20,640 nt of DNA from a virus, in the IMG/VR virus record IMGVR_UViG_3300027298_000014, positions 1 to 20,640 of that record. One strand, 5' to 3'. Both the position numbers and the translations under genes were made by a program. The notes beneath the pieces were generated by a model that was not told where the DNA came from, ran no database searches, and saw only the letters and a list, made by a program, of their open reading frames with translations. Each line of letters begins with the position of its first letter. The stretch's first letter is position 1. This document shows positions 1,644 to 15,897 of this stretch, piece after piece.

Positions 1644-4607
1644 TTAATATACTCCTGTTGTGCTATTGCTCTGTGATGAAGCTGTAACTTGAACATTTCT
1701 CCAAGGGTAAGCGGTAAAGCTTTGATGAAAATCAATATTTGGCGCAGAGTAATAATTATGTGATAATACAATAACACAAAAACCATCACTTGATGTATAA
1801 GGACTTTGTACAAAATTAGTCCAGTTACCGGAATTTTCAACGGTAAGACCTGCAAAACCACCACTCCAATTATGAAACATTACAGAGCCATCACCTCTTA
1901 ATGAACCATATTTATAACTTTTTATATAAAAACCTCCCATTATATAATGAGTATTTCCTGAATAACCTGATGAATTAGTGTGTGATCCACCCATCCAAAG
2001 ATTTGTTTTATAATGTACATAAGAATAGCTGTTATTAGCGTAGTATTGACCCGTATGCCAAGCGTATTGTATTCTACCTATTCTCGCTCCACAATCTTTA
2101 TTAAATGCTCCAGTGCCATGGTGCAATTGAACATCCAGCTGAGCTACAGGTGAATTCTCCCCGATCCCAACGAGGCCAGCATTTGTAATCCTCATTCTTT
2201 CTGTTGCTGCAGTTTCAAAAATCATATTATCATTAGAGTGAATATATTGTATTCTACCTGCAAATCCTGCATTTTCATCTCCAAATGTTAGAAAACTTCC
2301 TGTACTTGAGGTTGCAAGTAAAGTCATTCCTGACCAAGTATTGTTCTTAATTAATATACTTGTATTAGCATCTACACCACTTGGCTCCGTTACATTACTT
2401 TGTGCTACTACTAATTTAGTGCTAGGCGAAGTCGTTCCGATCCCGACGTTGCCTCCATTAATCCAACTATCACCAGTTGTATATAATCTAATATTTTCTG
2501 TGGTATTATGGAACATTCGTAAAAGAGGGTCATCAGTTCCTCCACTGGAACCAGTACCTAAATAAACAATTTGATTAGTCGTGTTCTTTTTTATTATTTC
2601 TAACGCAGCGTTTGCATTACTTTTGTCAATAGTTAAACCTCTTCCAGGCGAAGTCGTCCCGATCCCAACGTTTGCATTTGAATCAACGTTTATAGCTATT
2701 GTTCCACTAGCAGAACCTACATATACAGCAAAAGGATTTGTTGTATTTGAATTAATAGTCATTGTTTGACTATTCCCATGCCATGTTTGAAATTGCACAC
2801 CATTAGCATTAGAGTTTGCTTGGTATCTAGTAAATAAATCTCCAGTACTTTGAACATGTAGAGGTTGTTGAGCCAAAGTCGTTCCGATTCCTAATTTATT
2901 ATTAATAATTACATCACCAGTATTATATTGAATATGCATTTTACTATCTCCAACTTCAGCACTGTTTTGGTCATTTACTGTATCCACCAAAAAGTGCAAG
3001 TCCTGTCTTGCTGAATTATCACCCTTAGCCTGTGCTACGATACCAACTTTTCTATAAGCAGTATTTGCTTCAGAATAACCTAAACTTATACCTCCAAAGA
3101 CCCCAGAACTGTTATTTGTTCCTTGACCAAAATGTGCATTTAATGCTGATGCCGCGCCTTTAACTTCAAGTGTTGTTTGAGGCGTAGCAGTTCCAATTCC
3201 TACGTTTTGCGATGAGTTTATTGTTAAAGCCCTTGTATTTCCAGTTTTCAATGAAAATGAATGTGCTGTAGACGTACCTAATGACATATCAGTAGTAGCA
3301 TCATCATAACTCCAATCTCCTGCTACTGCACCGCCATTTCTTTGTGCTTTATAAATTATTACACTATTTCCAGCAGTGTAAATACCATTTGCAGTAACAT
3401 TACCTGAAAAATTTGTGGCGCTATCGTGAAATAATGATATTATTGGTGTTTTAGCACCGTTGTATTCAGTAAGACCAATTTTACCATAAGGTACTGTAGC
3501 AGTTCTACCGCCTTCAAAATATATACCTCTATCATTTGAAGTTCCTAATCTAATAGTACCACCACTACCACTTGCATCAGGCGAACCTTCAAACCTTGCT
3601 ACTTCAACTACACTTCCTGAAGACCCAGGATTTTTAACATGTAACTTAGTGGCGGTAGTATCAAAAGCATATGGATTTAGACTTCCGATTCCGATGCTGC
3701 CTTGGTTAAAAACTAAAGTATTTGGATATGTTGTTGTGTTATTAATTTGCTCAAAAACATATCTTACATTTCCAGCTGTAACTGTTTCTTTTAATTTTAA
3801 TGAGAAATTATCATTACTTGGGGAATAATTCCATTGTTGATAAACACCACTTGATGCGGGTAAAACATTTAATTTAGCATTTGATGTGTTAAAAGATGCA
3901 GCATCATTACTTAAAAGCAAATTTCCTGTTTGTGTTATTTTAACTTGATTAAAAAGTGTTCCAGCATTTTCAGTGGCAAAAAATAATGTACCATTATTTG
4001 TGTCAATTTGGTCCATTGTAATTCTTGCTTTAGAATCTCCTGTATCAGCATTTTCTACAAAATCAATATAAGGTGCATTTGAAGAATTATGTATAATTAC
4101 ATTTCCTGCAAAAGTTGCTGCCCTAGTGCTTGCTACTAAAGTTAATAAGTCCTGATTTGAATTATTTAAAAATCTTATATCATTACTAGCATTACTTTGA
4201 ATTCTTGATATACCTGATATACCACCTAGAGCTATGTCACCCTCAGATGTAGCTCTTACGTATGGCGCTTTTGCAAATCCCGTAAACGTTGGTGAAGCTA
4301 TTGGAGCTTTTAAAGCAATACTATTTGTAACTGTTGTGCTAAAGTTTGCATCATCCCCAAGAGCTGCAGCTAACTCATTAAGGGTGTTAAGCGCTGAAGG
4401 CGATGAATCAACTAAATTAGTTATTTGTGTACCCACATAGCTTTCTGTAGCAAAACTATTTGTAGATAAGTAAGAACTCACTCTAGCATCCGTGTAATAC
4501 AAATTGCTACCCTCTCCAATATGTGCGGTAGTTATACCGTGGCTAGCGTGTAAATTACTCTGGACTATTACGCCGTCTGATATAAGTTTTACTTTAGTTT
4601 GTGCCAT
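1644..4607 (-). CDS. Large tail fibre protein with NVGIGTTSP repeats
   Basis: The product has 987 residues. Residues 24-42 read GITTAHIGEGSNLYYTDAR, and residues 63-100 carry the VDSSPSALNTLNELAAALGDD-type module shared with the flanking fibres. The shaft holds at least six GIG repeats: IGIGSLNP, NVGIGTATP, LGIGTT, NVGIGTTSP twice, and VGIGENSP. Each repeat is followed by a short L-x-V strand, and ERMRIT occurs before the last one. The final 160 or so residues (DNA about 1644-2140) are rich in N, S, Y, W and G. They have no GIG repeat and no S74 motif, so they are the likely receptor-binding tip. The protein should be a trimeric beta-rich virion fibre (family knowledge). It starts 11 bases after the stop of the tail-assembly-chaperone-like gene, with an A/T-only leader. 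Internal stops and frameshifts are absent. Confidence 0.93.
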   Translation of the reverse strand: MAQTKVKLISDGVIVQSNLHASHGITTAHIGEGSNLYYTDARVSSYLSTNSFATESYVGTQITNLVDSSPSALNTLNELAAALGDDANFSTTVTNSIALKAPIASPTFTGFAKAPYVRATSEGDIALGGISGISRIQSNASNDIRFLNNSNQDLLTLVASTRAATFAGNVIIHNSSNAPYIDFVENADTGDSKARITMDQIDTNNGTLFFATENAGTLFNQVKITQTGNLLLSNDAASFNTSNAKLNVLPASSGVYQQWNYSPSNDNFSLKLKETVTAGNVRYVFEQINNTTTYPNTLVFNQGSIGIGSLNPYAFDTTATKLHVKNPGSSGSVVEVARFEGSPDASGSGGTIRLGTSNDRGIYFEGGRTATVPYGKIGLTEYNGAKTPIISLFHDSATNFSGNVTANGIYTAGNSVIIYKAQRNGGAVAGDWSYDDATTDMSLGTSTAHSFSLKTGNTRALTINSSQNVGIGTATPQTTLEVKGAASALNAHFGQGTNNSSGVFGGISLGYSEANTAYRKVGIVAQAKGDNSARQDLHFLVDTVNDQNSAEVGDSKMHIQYNTGDVIINNKLGIGTTLAQQPLHVQSTGDLFTRYQANSNANGVQFQTWHGNSQTMTINSNTTNPFAVYVGSASGTIAINVDSNANVGIGTTSPGRGLTIDKSNANAALEIIKKNTTNQIVYLGTGSSGGTDDPLLRMFHNTTENIRLYTTGDSWINGGNVGIGTTSPSTKLVVAQSNVTEPSGVDANTSILIKNNTWSGMTLLATSSTGSFLTFGDENAGFAGRIQYIHSNDNMIFETAATERMRITNAGLVGIGENSPVAQLDVQLHHGTGAFNKDCGARIGRIQYAWHTGQYYANNSYSYVHYKTNLWMGGSHTNSSGYSGNTHYIMGGFYIKSYKYGSLRGDGSVMFHNWSGGFAGLTVENSGNWTNFVQSPYTSSDGFCVIVLSHNYYSAPNIDFHQSFTAYPWRNVQVTASSQSNSTTGVY

Positions 4608-4618
4608 TTATTTATTTA

Positions 4619-4906
4619 TTATTTTGGTTCTACAGGCCATTCTACGTTTGTTAAACTTGTGTAATTTTTTGTAATATCCCTAAGTTTTTGACGATATATT
4701 TTCCACTCGTCGGACAAAGTTACATCACTATTAGCCATCCAATCTGTTATAGATAATTTTTTATTTCTTGCATCTCTTAATAAATTCAAATCACTTTCTG
4801 CAATTTTATTATTTATCTGTGTTTGTGTTAAACCTGCAAAACCTGATATGTCAGGGCCATTGTGACTTATTATAATTCCATTTTCGTCGTATACTAATTC
4901 TTCCAT
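4619..4906 (-). CDS. Phage tail assembly chaperone-like protein (PF16778-type)
   Basis: The product has 95 residues. The C-terminal half contains LRDARNKKLSITDWMANSD, then DEWKIYRQKLRDITKNY and finally NVEWPVEPK. The order R-x-x-R-N-x-x-L-x-x-T/S-D-W, then W-x-x-Y-R-Q-x-L-R-D-I, then W-P-x-x-P is the signature I know from the Phage_tail_APC family (PF16778). Members of that family lie next to tail fibre genes. The N-terminal half (MEELVYDENGIIISHNGPD) is a short beta-like leader. Its place between two roughly 1000-residue fibres fits a role in fibre folding or attachment. It starts nine bases after the upstream fibre's stop. Assignment is from motif recall, not from a search. Confidence 0.75.
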   Translation of the reverse strand: MEELVYDENGIIISHNGPDISGFAGLTQTQINNKIAESDLNLLRDARNKKLSITDWMANSDVTLSDEWKIYRQKLRDITKNYTSLTNVEWPVEPK

Positions 4907-4915
4907 AATATTATT

Positions 4916-7900
4916 TTATTGTGCAAAGTAATAATTGCTAGTATCATTTTGAGCATATGAATGTATTTTTAGAGAATTTTGAAAACTTGTGGAGTGAGCA
5001 CCTAAATATATTTCTATCATACCTTCACTATAGCCGTTTGATCCACTATCTATTCTAAAACATAAATAACCACTGTAGTTTCCCGCTGTACTGTTTGTTC
5101 CTCTGTAAACATTTAAGTCTTTTGCAATACCAGAGTCCATAATATCTCCTCCAAAAACATTTATTATGCTACCTGAGTAAGTATATCCACCTTTACAAGA
5201 AATATACATACCTCTATTATACAAATACCCTTTTACATAAATATAAAACATAATGTTATCAGAAGTTGTATTCAATGCTACATCTAAATACCTGCTACCA
5301 TCTCTAATGTTTAATTGACCTAAATACTTCATGCCACTACCATTATGCCCAGCTATCTCATTATTCAAAGTAGTATAAAGTGTATCTGCACTTCCACCAA
5401 TGCTTTTATAAACAGTAGACCCTAGCTGCCCATCTGATCTTATCTCAAATCTGTGACCAGCTGTACCACCAGTTGTTGCATCATAGATATAGAACATGTC
5501 TTGAGCTCTAGGATTATTTGTACCACTACCACCAGTACCCATTCTAAACTCTCTTGTATCTGATTTTACAGAAACTTCCGCATAACTAGCAGCAACAGTA
5601 TTATCAACCAATATTCCTCTATTATCACCAGATGTATTTTTTATAGTAAGCTGGCTTGTGGGCGAAGTTGTTCCGATTCCTACACTTCCTGAACTACCAT
5701 CAATATACATCATCGGTGATGGGGAATTAAAGCTAATATCTTTTACAACGCTACCAGAAACAGATGAACCAATAGACAAAACTGAATTATCATTTGTGAT
5801 AAATGCTTGAGCAGATGTAGTTGTTGAAGAACCTTTAATTTCAACCGCTCCTGCACTTGTGATACGCATTCTTTCTGATGGAGCAGTATTTGTAGTTACA
5901 CTTCTTGTTCCAAAAACTAAATCTCCTTTTGTGCTTCCACTACCACTTGTTGTAGTATATCCAATATATGCAGGAATATTAGTTTGTGCATTATATCCAA
6001 AACCAATTAAGTTATTTTGACCATTATTACCTTCATAACCTATTTGTAAAGTCATATCAGCTTTAGCAACTCCTGTTATACCAGTTCTTTTTATTGTAGT
6101 TAATCCAGAACTGTCTATACGCATTCTTTCTACATTGTTAGTAGCAAATTCCATATGGGAATTTTCTGCTAACCATAAAAACGCTTGAGATGATACACCA
6201 ATTCCAACCTCAAAACCGTTGTTTCCTGATGCTGTTGAAGTAAATCTAGCGACACCTTCTGTTCCATTAACGTGCAAAGGTCTCTGAGGCGAAGTCGTTC
6301 CGATCCCGACTTTGCCAGTGGAACCTTCAATAATCATTGCATTATCTTTTGTACCAGCATCAAACCTAATATTACCATTGTTGAACAATATCATTCTTGT
6401 ATCTTCACCATCATCATTAATTGATGTACCGGCTGCGCCACCTTTTATATAAAGAAAACCGTTAGACGCATGTTTTATACTATTTGCATCTCTATTTGTA
6501 TCTGGACCTATTGGAAAAGTTACATTTCCATTACCTTGTATTTTTAATTTTTCATTACCTGCTACTGTAAAAATAAAATCTGATGCTGCCTCTGTTCCTG
6601 TATGAGCAAAAGTTACTGTATCGGTTAAAGCATCATTATTTACATTAAATTGTTGTCCTATCTGTAAATTAGTTGTATAAGTTGCAGGGAATGTTGCTAT
6701 AACTTTGTGATAAGTTCCTGCATTTACATTTAAACCTGTTGATGTTATACTTCCTGAAAAAGTTGCATTGCCATTTGTTGCTATTTCTAAAACTTGTCCA
6801 TTTGGAGTAGTTGTATTTCCACTTTGTACATAAAACCTTAAATTAGTTTCATTAAATATACCCCAAGAAAAATCTGTTCGTGTTAATGCAAATTGAGATA
6901 CATTACTATTTGATGCACCATCTATAATTATTTTGTCTGTTGTTACACTACCAGAAAAAGTTCCTCCCCCAGTTACGTTAATACCAGTAGATTCAATGTT
7001 CATCATACTGTTTCTATTATCGTATCTTATAAAGTTGAAGATATGAGCAGAACCAGATTGTATGTAAAATTCATTATTTGTATCTCTTAAATTAATCCCT
7101 GGATTATTTGCTGCGGGTAAAGCTGAAGTTGAAAATAAAATATTCTTAGCGTTTAAATTACCAGTTAATGTACCACCAGCTAAAGGGAGTTTAGTACCAA
7201 TGCTCGTAGCCGTAGTTGTAGCAAAGTTAGGATCGTCACCTAATGCTGCCGCAAGTTCATTTAAAGTATTCAATGTTGCTGGCGAACTGTCAACTAGATT
7301 TGATATTTGAGTTCCTACGTAACTTTGCGTTGCATAACTACTAAGATCCTGATCACCTGTATTAGTACCAGACAAATTACTTATGTCAGTTTTGTCTTGT
7401 GCAGATAATCCGTGATCACCCCATCCGTAAGCTGTATTCCAGTTTGCAGAGTTGTTTGCTGTAATGCTATACACACCCGAGCCATTGCTTGTCATTAAAC
7501 CAGCAGATGTAAAATCGTGATCGTATAATATATCACCACCTGAATATGCGGAACCTATACTCATAACCTCTATAGATACACCATTTGCAGGTGCAGTATC
7601 TAAAGTTAATGTAGTACCACTTAAAGTATAAGTACCTTTAAATTGGTATACACCATTTAAAAATACTATAGTTTGATTCTCGCTGTGAACGGTTTGTCCT
7701 AATGTGAATGCTGTTGCTGATCCGTTAGCTGTAAATGTATCTGTGTAGATTGCTGTTGGACCACTGTTTATACCCGTTGTAGATATAACCTCTATTTCAT
7801 GACCACTTAGAGGTGCAGTGGAAAATGTTATGGCTGTACCAGAGACTGAATAAGTACTCTTAGATTGATAAACACCGTCTATGTATATATTAGATTGAAC

Positions 7901-8116
7901 TTCATCATTTAATGCGTTAGACAGAGTAAAACCAGTTGTGCTGCCATCACCTGTAAATGTATCTTTGTACATTACAGAAGCAGAATCAGCGGATAGCTGG
8001 CCAAAGGATAAATTACCGGAACCATCTGTTTTAATAACTTGATTGTTTGTTCCGTCTGACGCGGGAAATGTATATGCGTCGTTAATCCTTATGTTACTAA
8101 GAAAACGTTTTGCCAT
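4916..8116 (-). CDS. Large tail fibre protein with tandem N-terminal beta modules
   Basis: The product has 1066 residues. After a MAKRFLSNIRINDAYTFPAS start and a TDGSGNLSFGQLS segment there are two tandem copies of a roughly 64-residue module, at about residues 50-113 and 124-187. Their parallel motifs are DTFTGDGSTTGFTL/DTFTANGSATAFTL, DGVYQSKSTY/NGVYQFKGTY and STAPLSGHEIEV/DTAPANGVSIEV. Then come NWNTAYGWGDHG, a SYATQSYVGTQISNLVDSSP segment and the LNTLNELAAALGDDPNFATT shaft module. The shaft includes KVGIGTTSP and SVGIGTTSP repeats and ERMRI segments. The C-terminus (about the last 150 residues) is unrelated to the shaft, ends NDTSNYYFAQ, and is the probable tip. No S74 self-cleavage motif is present. 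Role: virion fibre, likely receptor binding (family knowledge plus position). Confidence 0.93.
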   Translation of the reverse strand: MAKRFLSNIRINDAYTFPASDGTNNQVIKTDGSGNLSFGQLSADSASVMYKDTFTGDGSTTGFTLSNALNDEVQSNIYIDGVYQSKSTYSVSGTAITFSTAPLSGHEIEVISTTGINSGPTAIYTDTFTANGSATAFTLGQTVHSENQTIVFLNGVYQFKGTYTLSGTTLTLDTAPANGVSIEVMSIGSAYSGGDILYDHDFTSAGLMTSNGSGVYSITANNSANWNTAYGWGDHGLSAQDKTDISNLSGTNTGDQDLSSYATQSYVGTQISNLVDSSPATLNTLNELAAALGDDPNFATTTATSIGTKLPLAGGTLTGNLNAKNILFSTSALPAANNPGINLRDTNNEFYIQSGSAHIFNFIRYDNRNSMMNIESTGINVTGGGTFSGSVTTDKIIIDGASNSNVSQFALTRTDFSWGIFNETNLRFYVQSGNTTTPNGQVLEIATNGNATFSGSITSTGLNVNAGTYHKVIATFPATYTTNLQIGQQFNVNNDALTDTVTFAHTGTEAASDFIFTVAGNEKLKIQGNGNVTFPIGPDTNRDANSIKHASNGFLYIKGGAAGTSINDDGEDTRMILFNNGNIRFDAGTKDNAMIIEGSTGKVGIGTTSPQRPLHVNGTEGVARFTSTASGNNGFEVGIGVSSQAFLWLAENSHMEFATNNVERMRIDSSGLTTIKRTGITGVAKADMTLQIGYEGNNGQNNLIGFGYNAQTNIPAYIGYTTTSGSGSTKGDLVFGTRSVTTNTAPSERMRITSAGAVEIKGSSTTTSAQAFITNDNSVLSIGSSVSGSVVKDISFNSPSPMMYIDGSSGSVGIGTTSPTSQLTIKNTSGDNRGILVDNTVAASYAEVSVKSDTREFRMGTGGSGTNNPRAQDMFYIYDATTGGTAGHRFEIRSDGQLGSTVYKSIGGSADTLYTTLNNEIAGHNGSGMKYLGQLNIRDGSRYLDVALNTTSDNIMFYIYVKGYLYNRGMYISCKGGYTYSGSIINVFGGDIMDSGIAKDLNVYRGTNSTAGNYSGYLCFRIDSGSNGYSEGMIEIYLGAHSTSFQNSLKIHSYAQNDTSNYYFAQ

Positions 8117-11577: not shown

Positions 11578-11916
11578 TTAAAATTTTTTTAATAATTTAT
11601 CGAAAGGGTTTTGTTTTAAACCAGCACCTATAGCAAACAACTCTGAACCTTTAGCAAAACTAAAGTCACCATTAATAAGATCTTTATTTTCTTCTACCAC
11701 TACACTACTAGTTTTATCAGTTTCTTTGGAACTTGTTTCAGTTAAATCTGGTGGTGGTGGAGTTGAAGGCTGCTGGTTATTACCTGGTGAAGGTTCTTGC
11801 TTTTCACCTTTTACCTTGTTCATAGATCCATAAACCTTTTCAGCACCCTCTACTAGTGCTTCACTTATCTTAAAAGGTGAACCTTTTGCTTTTTGAGTTA
11901 TTGGTTGTGTTTTCAT
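11578..11916 (-). CDS. Disordered protein with KGSPFK N-terminus
   Basis: The product has 112 residues. The N-terminus MKTQPITQKAKGSPFKISEA carries the KGSPFK element at residues 11-16. It closely parallels the 53-residue protein upstream (MITPITIKAK, then QKGPFP). The middle is proline-, serine- and threonine-rich (PSTPPPPDLTETSS), hence disordered. The C-terminus is a short amphipathic segment (FAIGAGLKQNPFDKLLKKF). Its ATG overlaps the TGA of the HEXXH gene (ATGA), so the two are translationally coupled. No catalytic motif is visible and I cannot assign a family. Coupled position and shared motif suggest that it works with its neighbours, probably on the virion (inference). Confidence 0.8.
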   Translation of the reverse strand: MKTQPITQKAKGSPFKISEALVEGAEKVYGSMNKVKGEKQEPSPGNNQQPSTPPPPDLTETSSKETDKTSSVVVEENKDLINGDFSFAKGSELFAIGAGLKQNPFDKLLKKF

Positions 11917-12278: not shown

Positions 12279-12439
12279 TATGAATTTGTTTTTTCAGCAT
12301 GTTTTCTATGAGCTATAACCTCTGGGTGGTTTTCATCAACTTTAATAGGTCCACCAGAACCATCTGCATTCATAGTTACCTCTTGGTTTTTAGGAAAAGG
12401 ACCTTTTTGTTTTGCTTTAATAGTTATTGGTGTTATCAT
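12278..12439 (-). CDS. 53-residue protein with KGPFP motif
   Basis: ATG at 12439 overlaps the TGA of the winged-helix gene (ATGA), and its TAA at 12278 overlaps the next ATG (TAATG). The product has 53 residues. It begins MITPITIKAKQKGPFPKNQE, then VTMNADGSGGPIKVDENHPE and a basic tail with HRKHAEKTNS. The first 17 residues align well with the 112-residue protein two genes downstream (PIT-x-KAK followed by G-x-P-F/G-P-F). Overlaps at both ends make it a convincing gene despite its size. The function is unknown. The HPEVIAHRKHAEK helix has several histidines but no recognisable metal site. Confidence 0.75.
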   Translation of the reverse strand: MITPITIKAKQKGPFPKNQEVTMNADGSGGPIKVDENHPEVIAHRKHAEKTNS

Positions 12440-12876
12440 CTATCTTTATCTTTAATCATATCATCTATAGCTTTGTTATAAACTTTGTCTGTATATGATT
12501 TATTATTAAAAAATTTACTTCTTGTTGATGTAGGTAAGTCTTCTTCAGCTAGCAGTATTCTATATATTCTACTTATTAACTGTTGACCTTTAAATGAAAC
12601 CTTATATATACTATATTTTATAGTAGTTCTATTTCTGTTTCTCCAAGTTTCTATCCAACCTTCACTTCTTAATCTTTCCCACCTGCTCTTGTCCCAGCTA
12701 TAAGTGTAAGTCCCATCTATAAAATCATTACGTGTAAATTGCTTTTTGCAATCAAGATACACTAATAATTCTAAATCAGCATCGGTTAGGCTATAAGTTT
12801 TACAGGCCCATTTTCTAACGAGCCTGTAATATTTAAATAAATTTAATTCCCTAATGTCACTAGTACTTAATTTCAT
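12436..12876 (-). CDS. Winged-helix DNA-binding protein
   Basis: The product has 146 residues. Residues 28-50 (YSLTDADLELLVYLD, then FTRNDF) look like the first helices of a MarR-like winged helix. WDKSRWERLRSEGWIETWRN (61-80) would be the recognition helix and start of the wing, and RNRTTIKYSIYKVSFKGQQL (81-100) the wing and following helix. Similar proteins occur in marine phages (recall only). Possible roles are a late-gene regulator or a DNA-binding particle protein. The ATG overlaps the GroES stop (ATGA), and its TGA overlaps the next ATG. Translation is therefore coupled to the chaperonins, which is an unusual place for a regulator. I see no membrane or catalytic motif. Confidence 0.72.
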   Translation of the reverse strand: MKLSTSDIRELNLFKYYRLVRKWACKTYSLTDADLELLVYLDCKKQFTRNDFIDGTYTYSWDKSRWERLRSEGWIETWRNRNRTTIKYSIYKVSFKGQQLISRIYRILLAEEDLPTSTRSKFFNNKSYTDKVYNKAIDDMIKDKDR

Positions 12877-13130
12877 TCTACTATGACAATGTCCTGATGT
12901 TGTATAACTTGGTAAAGTTTATCTTCCCACTCTATACCGTGACCAGCATGTTTATCGTAATGTACAATATCTCCATCACTTATACCTTTTACTAGGTCAC
13001 CAGAACTTATTACTTTTGCTTTTAAGTACCTAATGTCATTCGACTGTTTATCTGTTATAATAAATCCTCCAACATTTTTAGGTTCTTCTTTTATCTTTTC
13101 TATTACTAGATAGTAGTTTACTGCTTTCAT
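12873..13130 (-). CDS. groES: Phage co-chaperonin, GroES-like
   Basis: The product has 85 residues when started at the ATG at 13130, whose ATGA overlaps the GroEL stop. A start 27 bases upstream at 13157 would add nine residues (MCNIKCKRS) with no GroES counterpart, so I prefer the shorter form. The mobile loop is KNVGGFIIT (residues 18-26), with FII in place of the usual IVL tripeptide that contacts GroEL. The beta-barrel pattern continues with AKVISSGDLV, the SDGDIVHYDKHAG roof region and DIVIVE at the end. Role: heptameric lid for the GroEL ring, assisting folding of viral proteins. A phage partner in the same transcript suggests a dedicated pair. Size is slightly below the typical bacterial 95-97 residues. 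Confidence 0.93.
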   Translation of the reverse strand: MKAVNYYLVIEKIKEEPKNVGGFIITDKQSNDIRYLKAKVISSGDLVKGISDGDIVHYDKHAGHGIEWEDKLYQVIQHQDIVIVE

Positions 13131-14677
13131 ACTTCTCTTACATTTGATATTACACAATCTGCAGAGATAATTGTATTCACAACACTTACCGCATTTATTA
13201 AAGCTGTTTTTGTTACAAGCACAGGATCTATTATACCTGCTTTCATCATGCTATACACATCTCCAGTTGTAACATCTACACCAAAACCTTTTTCTTTAGG
13301 TTCTATATAAGGTATACCAGCGTTTTCTAGTATTGTAGAGTATGGCCATTTTATAGACTCTAATAATATTTGTTCTCCTTCATTCTTAGGTTCGATGTTT
13401 TGAGCAGCATTTAATAATGCAACTCCTCCACCTGGAACAATACCTTCTTTTAAAGCGGCTTTAGTTGCATATATTGCATCTTCAACTCTATCTTTCTTTT
13501 CTTTTAATTCTATTTTAGAATTAGCACCGACCTTAACAACACCTACAGCTCCTGATAGCATAGCTAACCTTTGCTCTAGTTTCTTTTTTAAGTATGCGTG
13601 CTTTTCTTCTTTTATCTTAGCTTCTACAGTTTTTATTCTTTCTACAACATCTTCGTTTCTTTCTTCTATAGTTATAACTGTAGTCTTATTATCAGTCACT
13701 GCTTTCTTAGTAAAACCTAATACATCAGGACTAATCATATCAAGATCATCACCAAGCTCTTCATTTATTAGTTTAGCACCTGTCAACATAGCTAGATCTT
13801 CTAATGTTTCTAACTTACTAGGCCCAAACCCTGGTGGATCAATTATATTTATTTTTATATTGCCTTTGACTTTATTCATAAGTAATGCTGAAAAAGGTTG
13901 TTGATCAACTTCAGCTACTAAAAGCAATGATTTTTTATTCTTTATAACATACTCTAATACACTTTGTATTTTTCTTATGTTAGGTATAGGTGAAGACACA
14001 ATTAATACACAAGCATCTTCTAATTCTATTTTATTCTTTTGTTTATCAGTTATTAGATGTTGAGATTTAATACCTGAGTCAATCTGTACGCCATCTACAA
14101 TATCTACATAAGTTATATCTGTATCAGACTCTTCCATTAAAACTACACCATTTTTACCTACTTGTTCAAAAGCGGATGCTATAGTGTAACCTAACTCTTT
14201 GTCGTTGTTGCACGAAATACTTGCAACATTTTTAAGCATATTACCAGATACTGCTTTACTGTGTTTTGATAAGTACTTATTAACTTTTTGTAATCCACTA
14301 GATATACCATCTTTAATCTGTCTTATATCTATATTTTGTTCAGCATAGACATTTTGTAAAAGTGATTGAGCAAGGACGGTAGCTGTAGTAGTACCGTCTC
14401 CTGCTTCTTTCACTGTGTTTTTAGCCGCTTCTTTTATCAAGGTTGCACCTATATTTTCGACCGGGTCAATCAAGACTACGGATTCTGCTACCGTTACACC
14501 ATCTTTTGTTATCACCGGTCTTCCGAGTGCATCTTCGTAAATTACGCATTTACCAGAAGCGCCAAGGGTTGACTTAACTGCTTTAGCTAGCTTATCAACA
14601 CCTATCATTATTTTTGTTCTAGCATCTGTACCGAAGGACAGATCCTTTACTATCTCACTTGGGTTATTATATTCCAT
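13127..14677 (-). CDS. groEL: Phage-encoded chaperonin GroEL
   Basis: The product has 516 residues and is full length except for the tail. The equatorial ATP site has TLGASG (37-42), ITKDGVTVAE (56-65) and GDGTTTAT (93-100), with D94 equivalent to E. coli D87. VEDA at 398-401 places D400 at the position of the catalytic D398, and GIVPGGG (412-418) is intact. The apical domain runs about 195-380 and includes PPGFGPSK (281-288). The GGM repeat tail typical of bacterial GroEL is absent; the protein ends VISNVREV. Role: ATP-driven folding chamber in the cytoplasm, here probably for virion proteins such as the giant fibres. It lies upstream of GroES, unlike the bacterial groES-groEL order. The leader lacks a Shine-Dalgarno sequence. 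Confidence 0.97.
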   Translation of the reverse strand: MEYNNPSEIVKDLSFGTDARTKIMIGVDKLAKAVKSTLGASGKCVIYEDALGRPVITKDGVTVAESVVLIDPVENIGATLIKEAAKNTVKEAGDGTTTATVLAQSLLQNVYAEQNIDIRQIKDGISSGLQKVNKYLSKHSKAVSGNMLKNVASISCNNDKELGYTIASAFEQVGKNGVVLMEESDTDITYVDIVDGVQIDSGIKSQHLITDKQKNKIELEDACVLIVSSPIPNIRKIQSVLEYVIKNKKSLLLVAEVDQQPFSALLMNKVKGNIKINIIDPPGFGPSKLETLEDLAMLTGAKLINEELGDDLDMISPDVLGFTKKAVTDNKTTVITIEERNEDVVERIKTVEAKIKEEKHAYLKKKLEQRLAMLSGAVGVVKVGANSKIELKEKKDRVEDAIYATKAALKEGIVPGGGVALLNAAQNIEPKNEGEQILLESIKWPYSTILENAGIPYIEPKEKGFGVDVTTGDVYSMMKAGIIDPVLVTKTALINAVSVVNTIISADCVISNVREV

Positions 14678-14703: not shown

Positions 14704-14997
14704 TTATTTAAAAGTTTTTACAACTTTAGGTCCTTTTAAAAATTCAAGCTTTTTTGTGTAGTGATCTACACTGCCATCAATAGCAGTTTCAGCTCCTTTT
14801 AAAGTTTCCCTTCTAGTTGTATCATGCCATTTATTCTCGTCCTTATAGTCAGAGTGTTCGGCTTGATAAAAACCATTAGGTAGTTGAACAATACGCCAGT
14901 TTTTTTTATTAGCGACGTGCTCCCAAAGCATCCTGGTTTCTTCGGGTACTCCTGGTTCACCTTGTGGCCAGGAATAGGTTTTGTAAAAATAAGTCAT
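14704..14997 (-). CDS. Conserved-looking phage protein of unknown function
   Basis: The product has 97 residues. It starts MTYFYKTYSWPQGEPGVPEE and continues TRMLWEHVANKKNWRIVQLP, NGFYQAEHSDYKDENKWHDT and TRRETLKGAETAIDGSVDHY. It is soluble, aromatic-rich and mixed alpha/beta in appearance, with no membrane segment. It is the first gene after a 48-bp gap containing TATAAATA and a palindrome, and 26 bases upstream of groEL. It may therefore open the chaperonin transcript. I do not recognise a family. Possible roles include a chaperonin accessory or a small tail protein; neither is shown by the sequence. Confidence 0.75.
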   Translation of the reverse strand: MTYFYKTYSWPQGEPGVPEETRMLWEHVANKKNWRIVQLPNGFYQAEHSDYKDENKWHDTTRRETLKGAETAIDGSVDHYTKKLEFLKGPKVVKTFK

Positions 14998-15549: not shown

Positions 15550-15897
15550 TTATGATTCTAATATTACAAGTATTTCAGTTGGTGAAACTTTTTCGTTAAC
15601 TAACTTAGCTACTTCAGCTTCATAAGCCGCTTTCATATCTGGACCTATTATTTTAAATATCCACGCCTTAACTATGTCATTAGTTAAATTATCTTTTTCT
15701 TCAAAGTTAGAAAGATCATTTATAGGTAATACAGTTTTCCTAACTATACTATCTAAAATGCCATCACTATTTGTCCCGGTTAATGTCCATATAACACCAT
15801 AAACAACATTACTTTTAGTTATAGGTGAAGAACTGAAATCTGTGTGACTAGTATACACTTGCAGTGTCTTGCAGTCCCAATTATAAGTTATTGCCAT
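15550..15897 (-). CDS. DUF7936-like virion-associated protein
   Basis: The product has 115 residues. It starts MAITYNWDCKTLQVYTSHTD, continues VVYGVIWTLTGTNSD, and ends with a helical segment (LTNDIVKAWIFKIIGPDMKAA, then YEAEVAKLVNEKVSPTE). The layout is MAIT-x-x-W, a V-x-W-x-L-x-G-T-x strand, then a helix with V-x-x-W-(11-12 residues)-YE-x-x-V-A-x-x-x-x-x-x-x-x-P. It matches small proteins I know from cyanophage and pelagiphage structural regions (DUF7936-type, by recall). It lies one base after the S74 fibre stop. Function is unknown beyond association with tail genes. Confidence 0.7.
   Translation of the reverse strand: MAITYNWDCKTLQVYTSHTDFSSSPITKSNVVYGVIWTLTGTNSDGILDSIVRKTVLPINDLSNFEEKDNLTNDIVKAWIFKIIGPDMKAAYEAEVAKLVNEKVSPTEILVILES

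Follow-up and report, generated by a model that had tools for sequence, protein, structure and literature searches.

A 20.6 kb virus record, referred to below at its full length as the window, encodes a GroEL and a GroES that belong to a group of viruses in which the ring–ring contacts of GroEL have been lost or deleted, while the residues of the ATPase site are intact and the C-terminal GGM tail is absent. We found no report of a loss of ring contacts in a viral GroEL in the literature searched. The explanation that we favor, with moderate confidence, is a long-established viral chaperonin pair in which a single GroEL ring would be closed by its own roofless lid and would act on head proteins.

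The groEL–groES pair and its origin

The two genes are adjacent, at the position given in the preliminary description; they lie on the minus strand (Table 1), and both are identified by profile searches. The GroEL matches Pfam Cpn60_TCP1 (PF00118) with 171 bits (cut-off 34) over profile positions 1-488 of 490, and PHROG 5725 ‘chaperonin groEL’ with E=2e-131. The GroES matches Pfam Cpn10 (PF00166) with 32.3 bits (cut-off 21.1) and PHROG 3188 with E=1.3e-11. Both genes are under purifying selection: dN/dS for groEL and groES is 0.05-0.06 when the comparison is with a contig whose GroEL is 96% identical, and 0.09-0.15 with a contig at 82-85%.

Table 1. Positions of the chaperonin genes, their neighbors and related features (window coordinates unless a contig is named).
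Feature	Position	Strand	Description
groEL	14677..13127	(-)	Group I chaperonin large subunit, 516 aa, without GGM tail
groES	13130..12873 (from its ATG)	(-)	Co-chaperonin, 85 aa; mobile loop GGFII, roof hairpin missing
groEL TGA/groES ATG overlap	13127..13130	(-)	ATGA, read from sequence
146 aa gene (family F3)	12436..12876	(-)	Immediately downstream of groES, ATGA-coupled; PHROG 17028, unknown function
97 aa gene (family F5)	14704..14997	(-)	Immediately upstream of groEL; no Pfam family over cut-off
DUF7936 match	15550-15897	(-)	PF25590, 33.6 bits (cut-off 27), function unknown
Fiber genes	3-1526, 1644-4607, 4916-8116	(-)	Share the same ~50-residue PHROG 1197/2631 module
Tail-fiber-assembly-like small gene	4619-4906	(-)	PHROG 8716/4912; between two fiber genes
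Tandem Cpn10-Cpn10 gene	L076:16143-16733; G001:39814-40404	(+) in L076	~196 aa; ~1.3 kb past window position 1 by synteny

The gene order had been called reversed, and relative to bacteria it is, as all 45 bacterial loci in the comparison start with groES. In the window’s viral clade groEL-first is the rule: the complete cognate pair is co-encoded in this order, adjacent or overlapping, in 80/80 of the nearest viral contigs among the matches listed, so the suspicion that close relatives might lack the pair does not hold. The named phages show both arrangements, with groEL first in Elemovirus, ctfjg026 and Panino and groES first in phi38:1, Calle, immuto and DAC23. Two small families accompany the pair. 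The 146 aa family is the next gene after groES in 47/81 loci and the 97 aa family sits just upstream of groEL in 69/80; the latter is a possible chaperonin partner.

The overlap of the GroES ATG with the GroEL TGA was read from the sequence just as the preliminary description reported it. Among the nearest viral contigs the two genes overlap by ATGA, by 1 nt or over a longer stretch. ATGA is found at the end of groEL in only 12 of the 82 sequences compared, a set that includes the window, the rest having a 1-nt or longer overlap. The same 4-nt overlap is found between groES and the next gene (12873-12876) and at 11913-11916. Because three junctions of the window use it, we regard ATGA as ordinary compact phage coding. 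Its interpretation as a special coupling device was rejected, as the motif is common in the window and variable among relatives.

The preliminary description also considered a full pair to be rare in phages, which is not borne out: such pairs are annotated in named phages and have been published (PMC7185714; PMC8407431), also from virioplankton, and in a marine flavophage group (group 2) to which phi38:1 belongs, Nishimura et al. (2017) found GroEL in 36 genomes (PMC5332604).

The closest long contig among the matches listed (G001, 68.6 kb) has a GroEL that is 96% identical and encodes a terminase (PHROG 6681) and a portal (PHROG 6547). The terminase Pfam family PF03237 had no match in 12 contigs, in which PHROG 6681 did match. 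Within the phage collection the terminase (TerL) matches only flavophages and ctfjg026, and a Bacteroidota host is therefore likely. At least ~590 related viral contigs were present in each of two viral-contig scans, which makes this phage group abundant in ocean viromes. Contigs of the same clade also turn up inside MAGs labelled Maricaulis, Sphingobacteriales, Euryarchaeota and Rickettsiales (L098-L103, G013-G018). Those numbered L098-L103, from bacterial and archaeal MAGs, are groEL-first as well. These are probably mis-binned phage contigs, and they inflate the Cpn60 counts of those MAGs (up to five).

A tree built from 94 GroELs sets all groEL-first viral sequences apart on one side of a branch that has a support of 86. 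When nine long-branched phage rows are left out, the window clade is supported at 100, with a stem length of 1.2 changes per column, and it is not nested within the sampled Bacteroidota or Pseudomonadota (45 bacterial sequences); the long branches that remain call for caution. A recent capture of a host groESL operon would be in keeping with the Flavobacteriia hosts of the phage relatives and with the best solved-structure match of the GroEL, a reconstructed Bacteroidetes-group ancestor. However, a well-supported clade on a long stem outside all 45 bacterial sequences, together with the opposite gene order in 45/45 bacterial loci, makes such a capture extremely improbable. Recent host acquisition, the objection that the preliminary description had raised against itself, is thus rejected by the tree and, under the tests used, the sequences indicate an old viral lineage.

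ATP site, ring contacts and lid

The AlphaFold model of the window GroEL (pLDDT 87) aligns with GroEL 4ki8 in VIA-align with a Z of 45 over 506 residues. A Cpn60 domain thus extends over the full length of a group I fold, which identifies the protein as a group I chaperonin, ~37% identical to bacterial GroEL. At the ATP site, 16 of 17 positions agree with bacteria, and D52, D87 and D398 are invariant in 92/92 viral GroELs. The exception is P33, which is replaced by A in 91/92. A substitution of D52 in viral GroEL was considered and rejected, as the alignment shows this residue to be conserved. Judged by these residues, the ATPase site is intact in all 92 viral GroELs.

The ring–ring interface looks very different. 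For the positions considered here, which we take to be contacts on the strength of the E. coli literature, the mean top-residue frequency in the viruses is 0.50 versus ~0.75 expected at equal bacterial conservation (p=5e-4). Bacteria conserve these positions, but they are unconserved even within the viral clade. Four residues are altered in the single-ring mutant SR1: 57/92 viruses have kept none of them, whereas 38/45 bacteria retain three or four. Furthermore, most of the clade has deletions of the segments that correspond to E. coli 428-434 and 465-470, and the GroEL model has no helix between residues 453 and 464, a stretch that aligns with one E. coli ring contact. The GGM tail, a usual trait of Cpn60s although not required of all of them, is present in 0/92 viral GroELs versus 42/45 bacterial ones.

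The apical surface, where lid and client bind, is conserved inside the clade but with other residues, among them L234Q (91/92), Y203H, L259K and A241I. Such re-specification within the clade fits the expectation for a dedicated lid. With regard to lid affinity, the re-specified GroES- and substrate-binding residues were also counted against the explanation that we favor. In the alignment the GroES keeps a mobile loop with a GG-hydrophobic motif within its Cpn10 domain, which identifies it as a Cpn10, and lacks the segment of the roof hairpin. The T4 co-chaperonin gp31 is likewise without roof loops (PMC6318259). T4 relies on the host GroEL, whereas the window encodes its own.

From the lost ring contacts, the missing GGM tail and the roofless GroES taken together, our prediction is a single ring that has its own lid. 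The two proteins would form a virus-specific group I chaperonin pair in marine podoviruses related to flavophages, with a single polycistronic message for both. GroEL would assemble as a heptameric ring, bind ATP and take up unfolded phage proteins; the co-translated GroES would dock on the apical domains by way of its mobile loop and close the chamber. With its ring–ring contacts gone, this ring, in contrast to GroEL14, probably acts by itself (7:7) or forms only a loose pair, and the roofless lid may admit slightly larger clients. We infer in this way the assembly state, lid binding, clients, co-transcription and expression timing. The 14:7 complex that the preliminary description wanted modeled is, on the degenerate ring–ring contacts, a poorer prediction than 7:7.

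An ordinary double-ring GroEL14-GroES7, in effect a viral version of the bacterial machine, its interface altered in detail and not in principle, would account for the full-length group I fold with GroEL as its best match, for the conserved ATP site and for the cognate GroES. It is rather unlikely, as both E. coli ring-contact segments are deleted, the remaining positions that bacteria conserve are unconserved in the clade and the GGM tail is lost. The main rival to the single ring is a double ring with a new interface, for example an in-register one as reported for phage EL, which would likewise erase the bacterial contacts.

Single-ring phage chaperonins have a precedent in OBP and AR9, whereas that of EL is ring-splitting; all three are phage-encoded and group I-like, as is the window’s, but have no known co-chaperonin (PMC9598537, PMC7185714). 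With a cognate GroES linked to it in 80/80 of the contigs listed and ~37% identity to GroEL versus ~22-25%, the window GroEL is not of this type.

Candidate clients

The preliminary description saw in the pair a folding machine for the giant fibers of the same gene block. In the window the pair does lie between a 1223 aa fiber gene and further fiber genes, and an ORF of >=600 aa is found within 6 kb in 54/69 relatives downstream and in 15/25 upstream. However, the fiber chains are 987-1223 aa long (roughly 105-135 kDa) and GroEL usually encapsulates up to ~60 kDa; at about twice this limit, they are too large for the normal cage. In ten of the 25 relatives with enough sequence, the 6 kb upstream of groEL contain no ORF of >=600 aa, and in relatives such as the contig G009 no large gene flanks the pair. 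In Elemovirus the pair lies away from the structural genes on the opposite strand, in ctfjg026 it does not adjoin the fibers, and the window has a separate tail-fiber-assembly gene. Hence, the proposal did not stand up to these comparisons and we consider a dedicated fiber machine improbable. The small gene between the fiber genes is a more obvious fiber helper than GroEL, and the module common to the fiber genes suggests repeated or paralogous fiber parts.

The likeliest clients would instead be head proteins of ~45-90 kDa, such as the major capsid protein and the portal. This is a guess from size, the head proteins of the closest long contig being ~400-800 aa, and from the precedent of T4 and lambda, which use the chaperonin system for capsid proteins (PMC9598537, PMC6318259).

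A tandem Cpn10 gene and related phage systems

In relatives, a gene for a tandem Cpn10-Cpn10 protein lies directly or closely upstream of the terminase and matches PHROG 13932 ‘co-chaperonin GroES’. It was found in 12/12 long contigs of the clade and also in Elemovirus, ctfjg026, Panino, phi38:1 and Calle; among the other named phages scanned, it was not detected in immuto, DAC23, phi14:2, the Vibrio phages and cr111_1. As the window ends before the corresponding position, we infer the gene in the window’s own virus from these relatives. Two contigs (L245, L255) have the tandem gene and no groEL in the 10 kb upstream; their order may differ or groEL may be absent.

The assignment is based on PHROG 13932 and a fold search. 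The AlphaFold model of the tandem protein (pLDDT 77) matches chloroplast Cpn20 (7ekq chain R) with a Foldseek E=6e-5 and a Z of 9.3 over 154 residues that cover both halves. The C-terminal half alone matches GroES with a Z of up to 8.3, and the N-terminal half is less certain. Matches to the phage GroES family profile, to Pfam and in a sequence search of solved structures are weak. Some phage records already label the gene cpn10 or GroES, and we found no paper on the phage form in the literature searched. A review calls Cpn20, a head-to-tail double Cpn10, chloroplast-specific (PMC5780408). Mixed seven-domain Cpn10/Cpn20 lids are a chloroplast feature, and by the likeness proposed here for the phage co-chaperonins, a three-part chaperonin of single-ring GroEL, roofless GroES and tandem Cpn10-Cpn10 could form mixed seven-domain lids for head-protein clients, a reading that we put forward only tentatively.

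The nearest systems differ in organization. Elemovirus (vB_FspP_elemo), ctfjg026 and Maribacter phage Panino have groEL then groES as in the window, overlapping in the first two, and a tandem Cpn10 that adjoins TerL; vB_FspP_elemo differs in a GroEL identity of ~36% and in the location and strand of the pair relative to the structural genes. In the Cellulophaga phages phi38:1 and Calle (Pervagoviridae) the head gene block includes GroEL, a single GroES and also the tandem Cpn10, but GroES precedes GroEL with one gene between them. Marine et al. (2017, ISME J) reportedly described virioplankton GroEL/GroES pairs with a gene order linked to GroEL phylogeny. The chaperonins of marine virioplankton are, like the window’s, group I GroELs of marine dsDNA phages, some with GroES, that have diverged from bacteria; no description of lost ring contacts or of the tandem co-chaperonin turned up in the literature searched.

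In summary, this group is a variant worth testing, having lost its ring contacts and possessing a cognate lid and probably a further, tandem one. If the three-part reading is true, a Cpn20-type lid would occur not only in plastids but also in phages. So far, the single-ring chaperonins studied in phages are lidless and lidded group I chaperonins are usually double-ring; a single ring with a dedicated lid, if true, would test whether encapsulated folding needs communication between rings.
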